From NCBI GenBank assembly GCA_905478845.1, contig CAJQKG010000193.1, positions 1 to 35,018 on the forward strand: DNA of 35,018 nucleotides. The letters run 5' to 3'. Under the pieces are notes generated by a model, which worked only from the letters and a program-made list of their open reading frames with translations, had not been told where the DNA came from and did not search any database. Positions 1-35,018 of the stretch are shown piece after piece (within the stretch, counting starts at the first letter, position 1; each line of letters opens with the position of its first letter). The stretch comes from an uncultured Luminiphilus sp. GTDB lineage: Bacteria; Pseudomonadota; Gammaproteobacteria; Pseudomonadales; Halieaceae. The position numbers and the translations under genes were made by a program.

Positions 1-105
1 GGAGACATGAATGATCGCTACCGGGCGGTCAGCTGAGACCTTGTCCAGATCATCGCGATTAGGGTGGCGCCGCTCAGCGAGCAGCGTATCGTCATAACCA
101 TGCCC
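1..105. repeat. Left arm of a 105-bp inverted repeat (partner 246-350), probable fold-back chimera
   Basis: Position i pairs with 351-i: the reverse complement of 246-350 matches 1-105 with a single mismatch (position 34 versus 317). Pairing stops at 106/245. Confidence 0.95.
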
Positions 106-1532
106 ACGGTCACTTTCCTGGGTCGGGTCAGACGGTGTTTTCTGCAGACCTCAATAGTCCACCGATCGGCGAGGTGACTCACCTGTCGCAGCTACTGGAG
201 CGGTTAACTCGCCTCGGGCAAACCCGCACGGATGGCTGGATCATAGGGCATGGTTATGACGATACGCTGCTCGCTGAGCGGCGCCACCCTAATCGCGATG
301 ATCTGGACAAGGTCTCGGCTGACCGCCCGGTAGCGATCATTCATGTCTCCGGTCACTTAGCCGTCGTGAATAGCGCTGCGCTCGCTATTCTTGGGATCGA
401 CGCCGAATCACTCGATCCTGAGGGCGGTGTGATCGTCAGAGAGCCTGATTCAGATGGCGGTCGACGTCCTAATGGTGTGTTGGAGGAAACGGCTGCGCGA
501 GCAGTCTGGGAGTACACCCTAGATCTGAGTGCGATGGATGCCTTGCGCATGACTACGCAGGCAGCGGAGGAATATCTGGCTGCAGGCGTGACGACCGCCT
601 CGGCGGGGGGGATGCCCACCACCGTTGCGACATTACTCGGGTTTTTAAGTCAGTTAAATCAGTTTCCCCAGCGAGTGGCGCTGTTTCCACTGTTTGAGGA
701 GGTGGGAGAGCAGCTACTCAACAGCAGTGCGACCTTAGACAGTTTTGCAAGGGCCAGGGTCTCTGTGCCGAGGGTCAAAATCATTGCGGACGGGAGTATT
801 CAAGGTTACACCGGTTATCTATCAGCGCCTTATCACGTGCCCTATAAGGGCGATGCTGATTATCGAGGCTATGCGTCGGTCCCCAGAGAGATACTGTTTG
901 AGCAAGTGGCTGGGCTCTATGAGCGGCGCATTCAAGTGGCAATTCATTGTAATGGTGATGCCTCGATAGAGGATGGGCTGGATGCCATTGAATATGCAAT
1001 GCAGCAGCATCCGTGGCCAGAGGCGAGACCACTGATGATTCATGCGCAAATGACCCGTGAGGACCAAATTGCGAGAATGGCTGAATTAGGCGTAACGCCG
1101 AGTTTTTTCTCAGCGCATACTTATTACTGGGGTGATCGTCATGCTGCGATTTTTATGGGGCCCGAGCGCGCCGCCAATATGAGTCCGGCTCGATGGGCCC
1201 AAGAGGCGGGCGTTCGTTTCAGTTCTCACCTCGATACCCCTGTCACGCCCATGTTGCCGCTGCAGGCCGTTTGGAGTCAGGTGGAGCGCAAGAGCACCAG
1301 TGGGACAATCATCGGGCCCGGTCAGCGCATCGATCGGCTTTCGGCGCTCCGTGCGGTGACCATTGATGCAGCCTGGCAAGTCTTTATGGATGATGTCATC
1401 GGCTCGATCGAGCCGGGGAAGGATGCCGATTTGGTTGTGCTCTCTGATAATCCATTGACCGCGCCAGATCTCCGTTCACTCAAAGTCGACAGAACGATCA
1501 TAGCGGGAGCGACCGTTTACAGGCGCCTTTAG
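105..1532 (+). CDS. YtcJ-like metal-dependent amidohydrolase, 5' end missing
   Basis: Translation has WIIGHGYDD, RPVAIIHVSGHLAVVNSAAL, VKIIADGSIQGYTG and a C-terminal GSIEPGKDADLVVLSDNP. The frame continues upstream of the called GTG (135) as HGHFPGSGQT back to about 105, where the inverted repeat begins. Confidence 0.85.
   Translation, partial: HGHFPGSGQTVFSADLNSPPIGEVTHLSQLLERLTRLGQTRTDGWIIGHGYDDTLLAERRHPNRDDLDKVSADRPVAIIHVSGHLAVVNSAALAILGIDAESLDPEGGVIVREPDSDGGRRPNGVLEETAARAVWEYTLDLSAMDALRMTTQAAEEYLAAGVTTASAGGMPTTVATLLGFLSQLNQFPQRVALFPLFEEVGEQLLNSSATLDSFARARVSVPRVKIIADGSIQGYTGYLSAPYHVPYKGDADYRGYASVPREILFEQVAGLYERRIQVAIHCNGDASIEDGLDAIEYAMQQHPWPEARPLMIHAQMTREDQIARMAELGVTPSFFSAHTYYWGDRHAAIFMGPERAANMSPARWAQEAGVRFSSHLDTPVTPMLPLQAVWSQVERKSTSGTIIGPGQRIDRLSALRAVTIDAAWQVFMDDVIGSIEPGKDADLVVLSDNPLTAPDLRSLKVDRTIIAGATVYRRL
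246..350. repeat. Right arm of the 105-bp inverted repeat, inside the amidohydrolase coding frame
   Basis: Encodes GHGYDDTLLAERRHPNRDDLDKVSADRPVAIIHVS of the amidohydrolase, so this is the native copy. Confidence 0.95.
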
Positions 1533-2199: not shown

Positions 2200-3369
2200 T
2201 TAGCGGTATCCGGTCGCGCGCAGGGCTGAGTGCCATTCGCGGAGGTCAGTGATGAATGCTTGCGGCTGCTCTAACGCCGCAAAATGGCCTCCTTGCGTAT
2301 GCTGATTGTTAAAAGTGATGAGCTTTTGGTAGCGCGTCTTAGCGAGCCGTTCTGTGCAGATAAAGAGTTCTTTCGGAAATAACGAAATGCCCATCGGGGA
2401 TTCAATAGCGCGGTAGTCTGGTGTCTTAAAGCTTTCCCAATACAAGCGAGCGCTGCTGCCACTCGAATTGGTCATCCAGTAGTGTGTGACGATATCGAGC
2501 AGGGTATCTCGAGCGATGACGTTCTCAGGGTGCCTGATGTGATGCCGTATTGAGTCAGTCCACTGTGCATACTTTTCGATAATCCATGCCATTTGGCCGG
2601 CAGGGGAGTCTGCTAATGCGTAGGCCAGTGTTTGCGGCCGCGTACTTTGCTGATTGGAGTACCCGGCTTCATGTGCTTGATAATGAAGCGCTGCTGCCAT
2701 TGTGGCTTGCTCTCCGGGATCGCTTGAGGACAGTGTCTCCTCATCGGGTAGCACGAGGGGTAGGTTCACATGACCGGCTTGGCACTGTAATGCATCATTT
2801 AGCAGGAGCGCATGTGTCACCAAGGATCCCCAGTCGCCACCTTGCGCCACATACTGGTCGTAGCCAAGACGCAGCATCAGTGTGTCCCACATAATAGCAA
2901 TGCGATCGATGCCGACACCGGGTTCGGTGGGCTTAGCTGAGAAGCCAAATCCAGGCAGACTGGGCATCACGAGGTGAAAGGCGTCCTCCGCCTGGCCGCC
3001 CCACTTTGTCGGGTCGGTAAGGGGCCCAATGATCTCTAGAAACTCCAGCACTGATCCCGGCCAGCCGTGAGTCATTAGCAGCGGCTTGGCATTGGTATGC
3101 GGGCTGCGCACATGGACCACGTGGACGTTGATCCCATCTAGCTCAGTGACCCAGTTCTGATACTGCGACAGCTGTTGAGGCACTCTTTGCCAATCGTATT
3201 CGTCCCGCCAATAGCGAACGAGTTCCTGGCAATAGCTCAGCGGTAAGCCTTGCTGCCAGTCTTCGACGGTCTCCGCTTCTGGAAATCGTGTTTGCGCTAA
3301 CCGTTGTCGCGCGTCATCAATGGCGTCGTCATCAAAGTGGGGCGTATAGGGTTCGAGTGCGTCATTCAT
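2200..3369 (-). CDS. Epoxide hydrolase, EHN-domain alpha/beta hydrolase
   Basis: 389 aa; N-terminal DDAIDDARQRLAQTRFPE, oxyanion HGWPGS, nucleophile region AQGGDWGSLV, C-terminal GGHFAALEQPQAFITDLREW. Confidence 0.88.
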   Translation of the reverse strand: MNDALEPYTPHFDDDAIDDARQRLAQTRFPEAETVEDWQQGLPLSYCQELVRYWRDEYDWQRVPQQLSQYQNWVTELDGINVHVVHVRSPHTNAKPLLMTHGWPGSVLEFLEIIGPLTDPTKWGGQAEDAFHLVMPSLPGFGFSAKPTEPGVGIDRIAIMWDTLMLRLGYDQYVAQGGDWGSLVTHALLLNDALQCQAGHVNLPLVLPDEETLSSSDPGEQATMAAALHYQAHEAGYSNQQSTRPQTLAYALADSPAGQMAWIIEKYAQWTDSIRHHIRHPENVIARDTLLDIVTHYWMTNSSGSSARLYWESFKTPDYRAIESPMGISLFPKELFICTERLAKTRYQKLITFNNQHTQGGHFAALEQPQAFITDLREWHSALRATGYR

Positions 3370-3424: not shown

Positions 3425-4849
3425 TCAAGTGCTCTCTGCGAGATTGAGTGTCGCGTAGGTCTGGCTCAGCCAAGGTTGCAAAGCGGCTCTCTCGTCAGCT
3501 GATTCGACCGTGCGCTGGCGGAGGTGGGTGGTGCGCGGCTCTCGGTCAAGAAACAGTTGCCCGCTCGTTTTGTCCGCCTCTCTCGCGCGCGCTAGCCAGA
3601 CGATGGTGTCAGCACCCTCCTGAGAGGAACGCAGAACCCGCTGCGTTAGGCGTCTGAAGCCCGGCAACGCGCCTTGCACACCGGGCGTATCTGCCCAGCC
3701 GGGATGCATGGCATTGACCACGATATGGTCGTCTTGCCATTGTGCCGACCACAATTCGGTGAGCACGGTCAGAGCACGTTTCGCGCGAGCGTAGGCGACC
3801 GAGCCGCGATAGTCATCTGCTGACATCACCAGTGATGCGCACTGGAGTTTCTGTGTGTACATCCCCCCTGACACGACATTGATCACGCGAGCGGGCGTGT
3901 CGTGGCCAGCTAAAAGGGGGTGCAATGCTTCTGTCAGACGCCACGGCGACAAAAGCAGTAACGCGACGCTCATCTCGATGCCCTCAGACGTCTGGCAATA
4001 ATCATTGAACAAGGCGCCAGCGTTATTGATCAATACATCAATGGGTTTATTGGCGCTCAGCAGGCGCTGACTCAGCGCATTGACCTGATTCAGTAAGCTA
4101 AGATCTGCAAGTTCCACCTGATCGGCCTGCCGTCCGGTTCTCTCTAGCAAGGCTGCCTGCATCGTTGCGACTTTAGTGGGATCGCGGATGACGAGGGTGA
4201 GCGAGGCCCCGGCATCGAGCAAGTCCACGGCGGCTTCGAATCCTAAGCCCGCACTAGCGCCCGTGAGTACCACGTGCTTGCCGCTCATGTCAGTGCTCAT
4301 AGGCGCCCAAGCGCGGCGACCTCTCCGGTATCCTGCCCGCGTAAAGCACGCCAATGCGGTCAGTAGGTGTTGATCTCGCTGCGCTGTCTTTGGGCTTGCA
4401 GCGGGTGGTGCGTTGTTGTCCTGAAGTGCTCGAGCGAGCCCCTGCAGACTTTTGCGACCTAATTTTTGCATGCTGGCTTCGGTACTTTGGGCGAGCGTGC
4501 GCAAGCCGTAGTGATAGGTGAAATCAGCGCAGTAACTGATTCTAGTCGTGTTGGCTTCTCGTGTTTCGAAGGTGATGACATCTCGCACCGTGAACCAGCG
4601 ACTTTTACCCTCCAGCACGATCGACTGCCAGGGGGTGTACTCCACAATGGTGTACTGGATTGATATCGTTGTCGGGCCAGCTCGACAGAGCAGCGAAAAC
4701 TCACTCCCCAACCCAATGGGCTCATCGGTGCGCTTTTTGGCGCTGACTGCCGTTGCGTCCCACTCGACAGTGGTGCGGAAATCGGCCACATAGCGAAAGC
4801 AGGCTTCAATTGGTCGTTCAACTTCAATTACTTCTTTCAAGGAAATCAT
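3425..4849 (-). CDS. SRPBCC (polyketide cyclase/START-like) domain fused to a short-chain dehydrogenase/reductase
   Basis: 474 aa; N-terminal IEVERPIEACFRYVADFRTTVEWD (SRPBCC), then TGASAGLG, NNAGALF and YARAK (SDR) in one uninterrupted frame. Confidence 0.83.
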   Translation of the reverse strand: MISLKEVIEVERPIEACFRYVADFRTTVEWDATAVSAKKRTDEPIGLGSEFSLLCRAGPTTISIQYTIVEYTPWQSIVLEGKSRWFTVRDVITFETREANTTRISYCADFTYHYGLRTLAQSTEASMQKLGRKSLQGLARALQDNNAPPAASPKTAQRDQHLLTALACFTRAGYRRGRRAWAPMSTDMSGKHVVLTGASAGLGFEAAVDLLDAGASLTLVIRDPTKVATMQAALLERTGRQADQVELADLSLLNQVNALSQRLLSANKPIDVLINNAGALFNDYCQTSEGIEMSVALLLLSPWRLTEALHPLLAGHDTPARVINVVSGGMYTQKLQCASLVMSADDYRGSVAYARAKRALTVLTELWSAQWQDDHIVVNAMHPGWADTPGVQGALPGFRRLTQRVLRSSQEGADTIVWLARAREADKTSGQLFLDREPRTTHLRQRTVESADERAALQPWLSQTYATLNLAEST

Positions 4850-32629: not shown

Positions 32630-34288
32630 ATGTCAGCAGAATTGCGCAGTAACTTTTTGCGGACACAAATTCAGTCTGATCTCGACGCGGGTCGGACTCG
32701 GGAGGTGGTGACAAGGTTTCCTCCTGAGCCCAATGGCTTTTTGCACATTGGGCATGCGAAGTCGATCACCGTCAACTTTGGCCTCGCTGAACAGTTTGGT
32801 GGGCGATGTCATTTGCGTTTTGACGACACCAATCCCGAGAAAGAGAGTCAAGAGTTTATTGACTCTATTCAGGAAGATGTCCGTTGGTTGGGGTACGAGT
32901 GGAGCGGCGAAGTCCGTTTTGCTTCCTCCTATTTTGAGCAGTTTTATGAATGGGCGCTGCATTTGATTGATAGCGGGCTTGCCTATGTATGCGACCTCTC
33001 TGCGGAGGAAGCGAGGCGCTATCGCGGCTCTCTGGTGGAGCCCGGTCAGAACAGCCCCTTTCGGGACCGTAGCGCGTCCGAAAGCCGGGCGCTGTTCGAG
33101 CAGATGCGTGCGGGAGCGTTTGCCGAGGGCGAAAAGGTATTGCGGGCAAAAATTGATATGGCCGCCCCCAATATGAATCTCCGAGACCCTATTCTCTACC
33201 GTATTCGTGATGTGGCACACCATCAGACCGGTACGGCTTGGACCATTTATCCCACTTACGATTTCGCGCACGGACAAGAGGATGCGATCGAGGGGATTAC
33301 CCACTCGATTTGCACCCTCGAATTTGAAGACCATCGGCCGTTATACGAGTGGTTTATCGAGCACTTGCCGGTGCCTCACACCCCGCGGCAGATTGAGTTT
33401 GCTCGGCTGAATACGAGTTACACCATAACGAGTAAGCGGCAGTTGAAGCAGTTGGTCGATGCTGCCGTGGTGACCGGCTGGGATGACCCCCGAATGCCGA
33501 CGATTGCGGGGCTGCGCAGGAGAGGCTACCCAGCGGCGGCGATTCGCCATTTCTGTGAAGAAGTTGGTACCTCCCGTTCCGATAGTATGGTTGACGTGGC
33601 AATGCTGGAGAGTGCGGTCCGTGACCATCTCAATAAGACGGCTCCCCGCGCCATGTGTGTGTTGCGGCCGCTGCGCTTAACCCTCACTAATTTGCCGAAT
33701 GAGTCCGTGTTGTCACTACCCAACCATCCTGCCGATGAGGCTTTTGGGCAGCGCGAAGTGACGTTGAGTCAGGTGCTCTTTATCGACCGTCAGGATTTTC
33801 GTGAGTCCGCCAACAAGCAGTTCAAGCGGCTGGTATTAGGAAAGCGCGTTCGTCTGCGAGGTGCGCTAGTCATCGAAGCGGAGCGCTGCGAGACAGACGC
33901 AGAAGGCAATGTGACACACGTCTTTGCGCGCTGCATCACGTTAGCGCCGGGCACGGACCCTGAGGATGGTGTCAAGCCTAAGGGCGTTATTCATTGGGTG
34001 TCAGCTGATCATTGTGTGCCTGCCGTGGTGAGATGTTATGACCGATTATTTTCTCAGGAGGCGCCGGGGCGCTGCGACGATGTCTTGGAGGCAATTAACC
34101 CAGAGAGTCTCGTGGTGGTAGAGAATGCGGTGGTGGAGCCCATGCTCGCAACGCTGGTGCCTGAGGAGGTGTACCAGTTTGAGCGTGAGGGCTATTTTGT
34201 GGCCGATCGATACGAGTATCACAGTGAGACTCCCGTTTTTAATATGACCATTGGACTACGTGATAACTGGTCGTCACCCAATGACTGA
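32630..34288 (+). CDS. glnS: Glutaminyl-tRNA synthetase
   Basis: [73 protein letters not shown]. Start placed at ATG 32630. Confidence 0.96.
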
Positions 34289-35018
34289 TTTGAGGGTCTA
34301 CAACACTGCGTCGGGCGTAAAGGAGGTCTTTACGCCAATCGATGACAGTCGCATCACCATGTATGTCTGTGGACCGACGGTCTATAACTACGCTCATATT
34401 GGGAATGCGCGACCGGTGGTGGTGTTTGATTGCCTTTATCGGCTGTTGTCTGCGCGCTACGGTAACGTGGTTTATGCCCGCAACATCACCGATATCGACG
34501 ACAAGATTATCCAGGCCGCGGTGGAAAGAAATTGTGATATCGGCGAAGTGTCTCGAGAGTTCACCAGCGCTTATCGAGAGGACATGGCGCTGCTGCACGC
34601 GCTGCCTCCCTCGATCGAGCCAATGGCCACTGAGCATATTCCCGAGATGATTGCTTTGACTGAGCGCCTGATCGAGCGCGGCCATGCTTATGTGGAGGCG
34701 GGACACGTGCTGTTTTCTGTCGAATCAATGCCCAGTTATGGCGCGCTGAGTCACCGACACCTTGACGACATGTTGGCCGGCGCCCGGGTCAAGGTCGCAA
34801 GCTATAAGCGCCATCCGGGTGATTTTGTGCTCTGGAAGCCCTCGAGCGCGGCGGAGCCTGGGTGGGAGAGCCCCTGGGGCCGAGGTCGACCGGGTTGGCA
34901 CTTAGAATGCTCTGCGATGATTAGGGCGCACTTGGGAGGCAGTATTGATATTCACGGTGGCGGGCGTGATCTGATTTTTCCTCACCACGAAAATGAACGC
35001 GCGCAAAGCTGTTGTGCG
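34281..35018 (+). CDS. cysS: Cysteinyl-tRNA synthetase, 3' end beyond window
   Basis: Absent from the ORF track (no stop in window). My translation from ATG 34281 stays open for 246 codons: [83 protein letters not shown]. Confidence 0.95.

Follow-up and report, generated by a model that had tools for sequence, protein, structure and literature searches.

Two kinds of described artefact come closest to the structure reported here. Among the chimeras generated by multiple displacement amplification (MDA) 85% are inverted, and of the inverted chimeras joining sequences <10 kb apart 93.5% have at least 2 bp of complementarity at the junction (PMC1855051). In library preparation, hairpin fill-in yields interrupted palindromes (PMC3946424), and chimeric inverted-repeat reads occur in sonicated libraries (PMC10908179).

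We have analysed the left end of a contig from an uncultured Luminiphilus sp. The window (the whole stretch of DNA that was analysed, 35,018 nt) is the entire contig C193, bases 1–35,018; whether base 1 is a contig end, a point that the preliminary description had left to be checked, can be answered in the affirmative. The assembly comprises 2,539,066 bp in 293 contigs, is 97.2% complete and 2.4% contaminated, and belongs to Luminiphilus (Halieaceae); the nearest named relatives of the genome are Luminiphilus/Halieaceae metagenome-assembled genomes. The inverted repeat at the start of C193 is an artefact and not a real biological feature, and bases 1–99 are almost certainly an in-vitro fold-back (hairpin-primed) chimera at a metagenome contig end.

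The C193 junction shares both the short microhomology and the inverted-with-deletion form of published fold-back chimeras (PMC1855051, PMC3946424). It resembles the MDA inverted chimera with an intervening deletion (Lasken and Stockwell 2007, PMC1855051) in being an inverted join, over a short distance, to nearby sequence of the same molecule; the junction microhomology is 6 nt in C193 versus 2–21 nt in MDA chimeras (PMC1855051). It also resembles library hairpin fill-in (Star et al. 2014, PMC3946424; PMC10908179), where a hairpin forms on a short natural complementarity and the 3′ end is extended on the strand's own 5′ part. Such fill-in gives equal arms at both ends of a fragment, and a fragment of exactly 1–350 would fit C193; this likeness to the library artefacts (PMC3946424, PMC10908179) is one of form, the arm in C193 measuring 105 nt with a 140-nt loop.

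Geometry of the inverted repeat and its junction

Bases 1–105 are the reverse complement of bases 246–350 at 104 of 105 positions (99% complementary), with a spacer of 140 nt between the two 105-nt arms; the single mismatch sets position 34 (T) against the complement of position 317 (C). Extent, mismatch and spacing as first described were all reproduced. The arm-to-arm match has an E-value of 2.6e-47, and no further inverted repeat of at least 24 bp was found in the whole 35-kb window; a chance origin is therefore out of the question. The features at this end of the contig are as follows (C280 is another contig of the same assembly).

1–99, minus strand: artefactual fold-back arm, non-native flank; reverse complement of 252–350, matching the native gene only in the opposite orientation, with no relative aligning on the plus strand
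100–105, unstranded: junction microhomology ATGCCC; occurs both in the native sequence of C280 (GATGCCCACGG) and, as the reverse complement of 246–251, in the folded-back copy
106–245, plus strand: spacer, native amidohydrolase coding sequence; 106–156 occur at the C280 end as well
246–350, plus strand: native right arm and fold-back template, amidohydrolase coding sequence, as seen in the repeat search, the domain match and the alignments of relatives
135–1532, plus strand: Amidohydro_3 ORF as called, 5′-truncated by the artefact; the gene's first ~100 codons, true ATG included, are on C280
1546–2196: thioesterase
2200–3369: epoxide hydrolase

At the junction, TCGATGCCCACGG is the native sequence (C280), ACCATGCCCTATG the folded-back copy and ACCATGCCCACGG the sequence of the window; the change from one to the other lies within the common ATGCCC. 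The chance of at least six bases in common at a random junction is ~0.0013 (about 0.13%). Since ATGCCC at 100–105 fits the native sequence and the copy equally well, only bases 1–99 are certainly foreign. The earlier warning that bases 1–105 should not be trusted as native flank thus holds for 1–99 and is withdrawn for 100–105, which agree with the native sequence.

The native locus on C280 and in relatives

The right arm lies inside an Amidohydro_3 gene (PF07969, E-value 9.3e-82), and the left arm is an antisense copy of the right arm's coding stretch, 95% identical to residues 36–72 on the minus strand. As called in the window, the ORF starts with GTG at 135 and encodes 465 aa with an Amidohydro_3 match but without the conserved DAHGHF motif. 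The last 57 bases of C280 (20005–20061) overlap window 100–156 at 56 of 57 positions, with the mismatch at 137, and C280 upstream of the overlap encodes the N-terminal part of the protein (MNWRVTLLILLAFLGG ... VLPGFIDAHGHFPGSGQTVFSADLN) in frame with the window ORF; this part includes the motif PGFIDAHGHF and extends upstream to an ATG. The native upstream sequence of C193 is the end of C280. The joined frame of C280 and C193 runs for ~570 codons from the ATG (~570 aa), a size in line with the open frames of relatives, which are mostly 562–601 codons long. The GTG at 135 is not the real start, because the artefact truncates the amidohydrolase ORF. The importance of the finding is one of data hygiene only: bases 1–99 should be trimmed and no amidohydrolase start should be annotated at GTG 135. 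In addition, the two contigs can be placed as neighbours, C280 before C193.

Both mismatches, at 137 and at 317, fall on third codon positions, and at 317 the alleles G and A are both found in near relatives. These mismatches are compatible with strain variants, and they date or prove nothing. At 34/317 the copy differs from the contig consensus, which would fit a sub-strain or a copying error and is not uniquely explained by either.

Bases 1–350 were searched against 57 genomes of the genus, the window's own included. Besides its own, 32 congeneric genomes align through the junction region on the plus strand, and all these alignments begin at base 100 or 102; no plus-strand alignment covering 1–99 together with the following bases was found in the congeners searched. 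Congeners match the left arm solely in reverse orientation, at the native position of 246–350. A second strain with this inverted arrangement, which the preliminary description had named as evidence against an artefact, was not found: the 56 other congeneric genomes all lack it. In all eight relatives examined, the genes of the C280 side, an intact amidohydrolase, the thioesterase and the epoxide hydrolase are collinear on one contig, and among 77 homologous loci with a recognisable start no inverted repeat >26 bp was found within ~1 kb of the gene start. The locus makes a clean worked example of a contig-end inverted repeat recognized as artefactual by means of the assembly itself and of relatives.

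Origin of the chimera and alternative readings

An in-vitro fold-back chimera is expected to be an inverted copy of nearby sequence from the same molecule, to have a short complementarity at its junction and to be absent from the native chromosome. All three properties are seen here, in the copy matching at 104/105 only 140 bp away, in the 6-nt ATGCCC, and in the C280 flank together with the congeneric alignments starting at 100 or 102. The first suggestion of a probable fold-back chimera is thus borne out by the continuation on C280, the 56 congeners lacking the arrangement, the junction microhomology and the inverted-with-deletion form. The location of the copy at a contig end also speaks for this reading.

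How the strand was primed and how the chimera arose at read level we infer as follows. A single-stranded or displaced minus-strand molecule, running from window position 350 down to ~100 and ending in GGGCAT-3′, would pair its final six bases with the complementary 6-mer lying ~140 nt towards its 5′ end (opposite 246–251). A polymerase would then extend the paired 3′ end, copying the molecule's own 5′ part, and in the product the native sequence would be joined to an inverted copy of itself, a 140-bp loop separating the two. Such a route has been published both for MDA chimeras (PMC1855051) and for hairpin fill-in in library preparation (PMC3946424). Either whole-genome amplification (MDA) or library end repair could have been the source. 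One or a few chimeric reads would form a tip that the assembler kept. Three overlaps between other contig ends of the assembly measure exactly 127 bp at 100% identity, which suggests that the assembler ran at k = 127. The chimeric tip probably survived because the native path was broken at the C280–C193 overlap, which has 57 bp with one mismatch and is shorter than the apparent k.

The alternative of a genuine recent inverted duplication, made by template switching at ATGCCC within the cell and carried by a minority strain of a marine Luminiphilus population, where it would inactivate a conserved amidohydrolase gene, is very unlikely. Natural template switching likewise uses microhomology, the arm is one base off its template, and the overlaps of other contig ends at 95–99.5% identity point to a mixture of strains. 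Still, relatives have an intact gene in conserved synteny, the arrangement is in no genome of the genus searched, and the native sequence exists in the same assembly. Moreover, the duplicated arm stops exactly at the contig end, which leaves no further sequence in support of a longer rearranged chromosome; a real chromosomal duplication would be expected to appear in independent genomes or to be followed by sequence continuing past the arm, and neither was found. The initial ranking of a real inverted duplication as the less likely explanation therefore stands, given the intact gene in relatives and the native sequence in the same assembly.

A pure mis-join by the assembler, with no chimeric molecule involved, would suit the location, a contig end, and the fragmented, strain-mixed state of the assembly; it is nevertheless extremely improbable, as joins in a de Bruijn graph require a shared word of length k, and the junction has only six bases in common versus the exact 127-bp overlaps at other ends. 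Since a 6-base overlap could not make the join at k = 127, the join was presumably already there in one or more reads. A functional inverted repeat (transposon terminal repeat, invertible switch, attenuator or hairpin), to which the long near-perfect arms and the short spacer might point, has a negligible probability, and the mobile-element and invertible-switch readings were rejected: the right arm and the spacer code for conserved protein, with nothing else between the arms, and the left arm is missing at this place in all relatives.

Fold-backs and contig ends elsewhere in the assembly

The fold-back in C193 was set against a survey of 141 contigs (1.17 Mb, 46% of the assembly) with 273 contig ends, among which the left end of C193 is the only one with a fold-back. 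Unlike the MDA chimera data (PMC1855051), the surveyed ends give this single case, with no sign of a heavy burden of MDA chimeras, and on these 141 contigs an assembly-wide fold-back problem was rejected. One end in 273 is compatible with a rare artefact rather than a systematic feature of the assembly, and does not constitute a replication.

The sole other long inverted repeat in the surveyed contigs joins the two ends of contig C13 (L118) over 240 bp at 93% identity. Its arms, 2–241 and 3510–3749, lie in opposite orientation on either side of a DEAD-box RNA helicase, and each is the start of a gene for a member of a secreted protein family. We rejected a fold-back in this case; the two genes are diverged paralogues, and it was probably at these copies that the contig broke.

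Many contig ends overlap by 140–386 bp at 95–99.5% identity (for example, L106/L114, L113/L205 and L163/L185), which fits a strain-mixed metagenome. Contig-end overlaps allow several contigs of the assembly to be ordered. The right end of C193, for which the assembly has no overlapping contig, cuts an ORF on the plus strand (34251–35018) that is cysteinyl-tRNA synthetase-like by eye. Elsewhere in the window, a single ORF on the minus strand (3425–4849) has an N-terminal Polyketide_cyc2 (START-like) domain fused to a C-terminal short-chain dehydrogenase.
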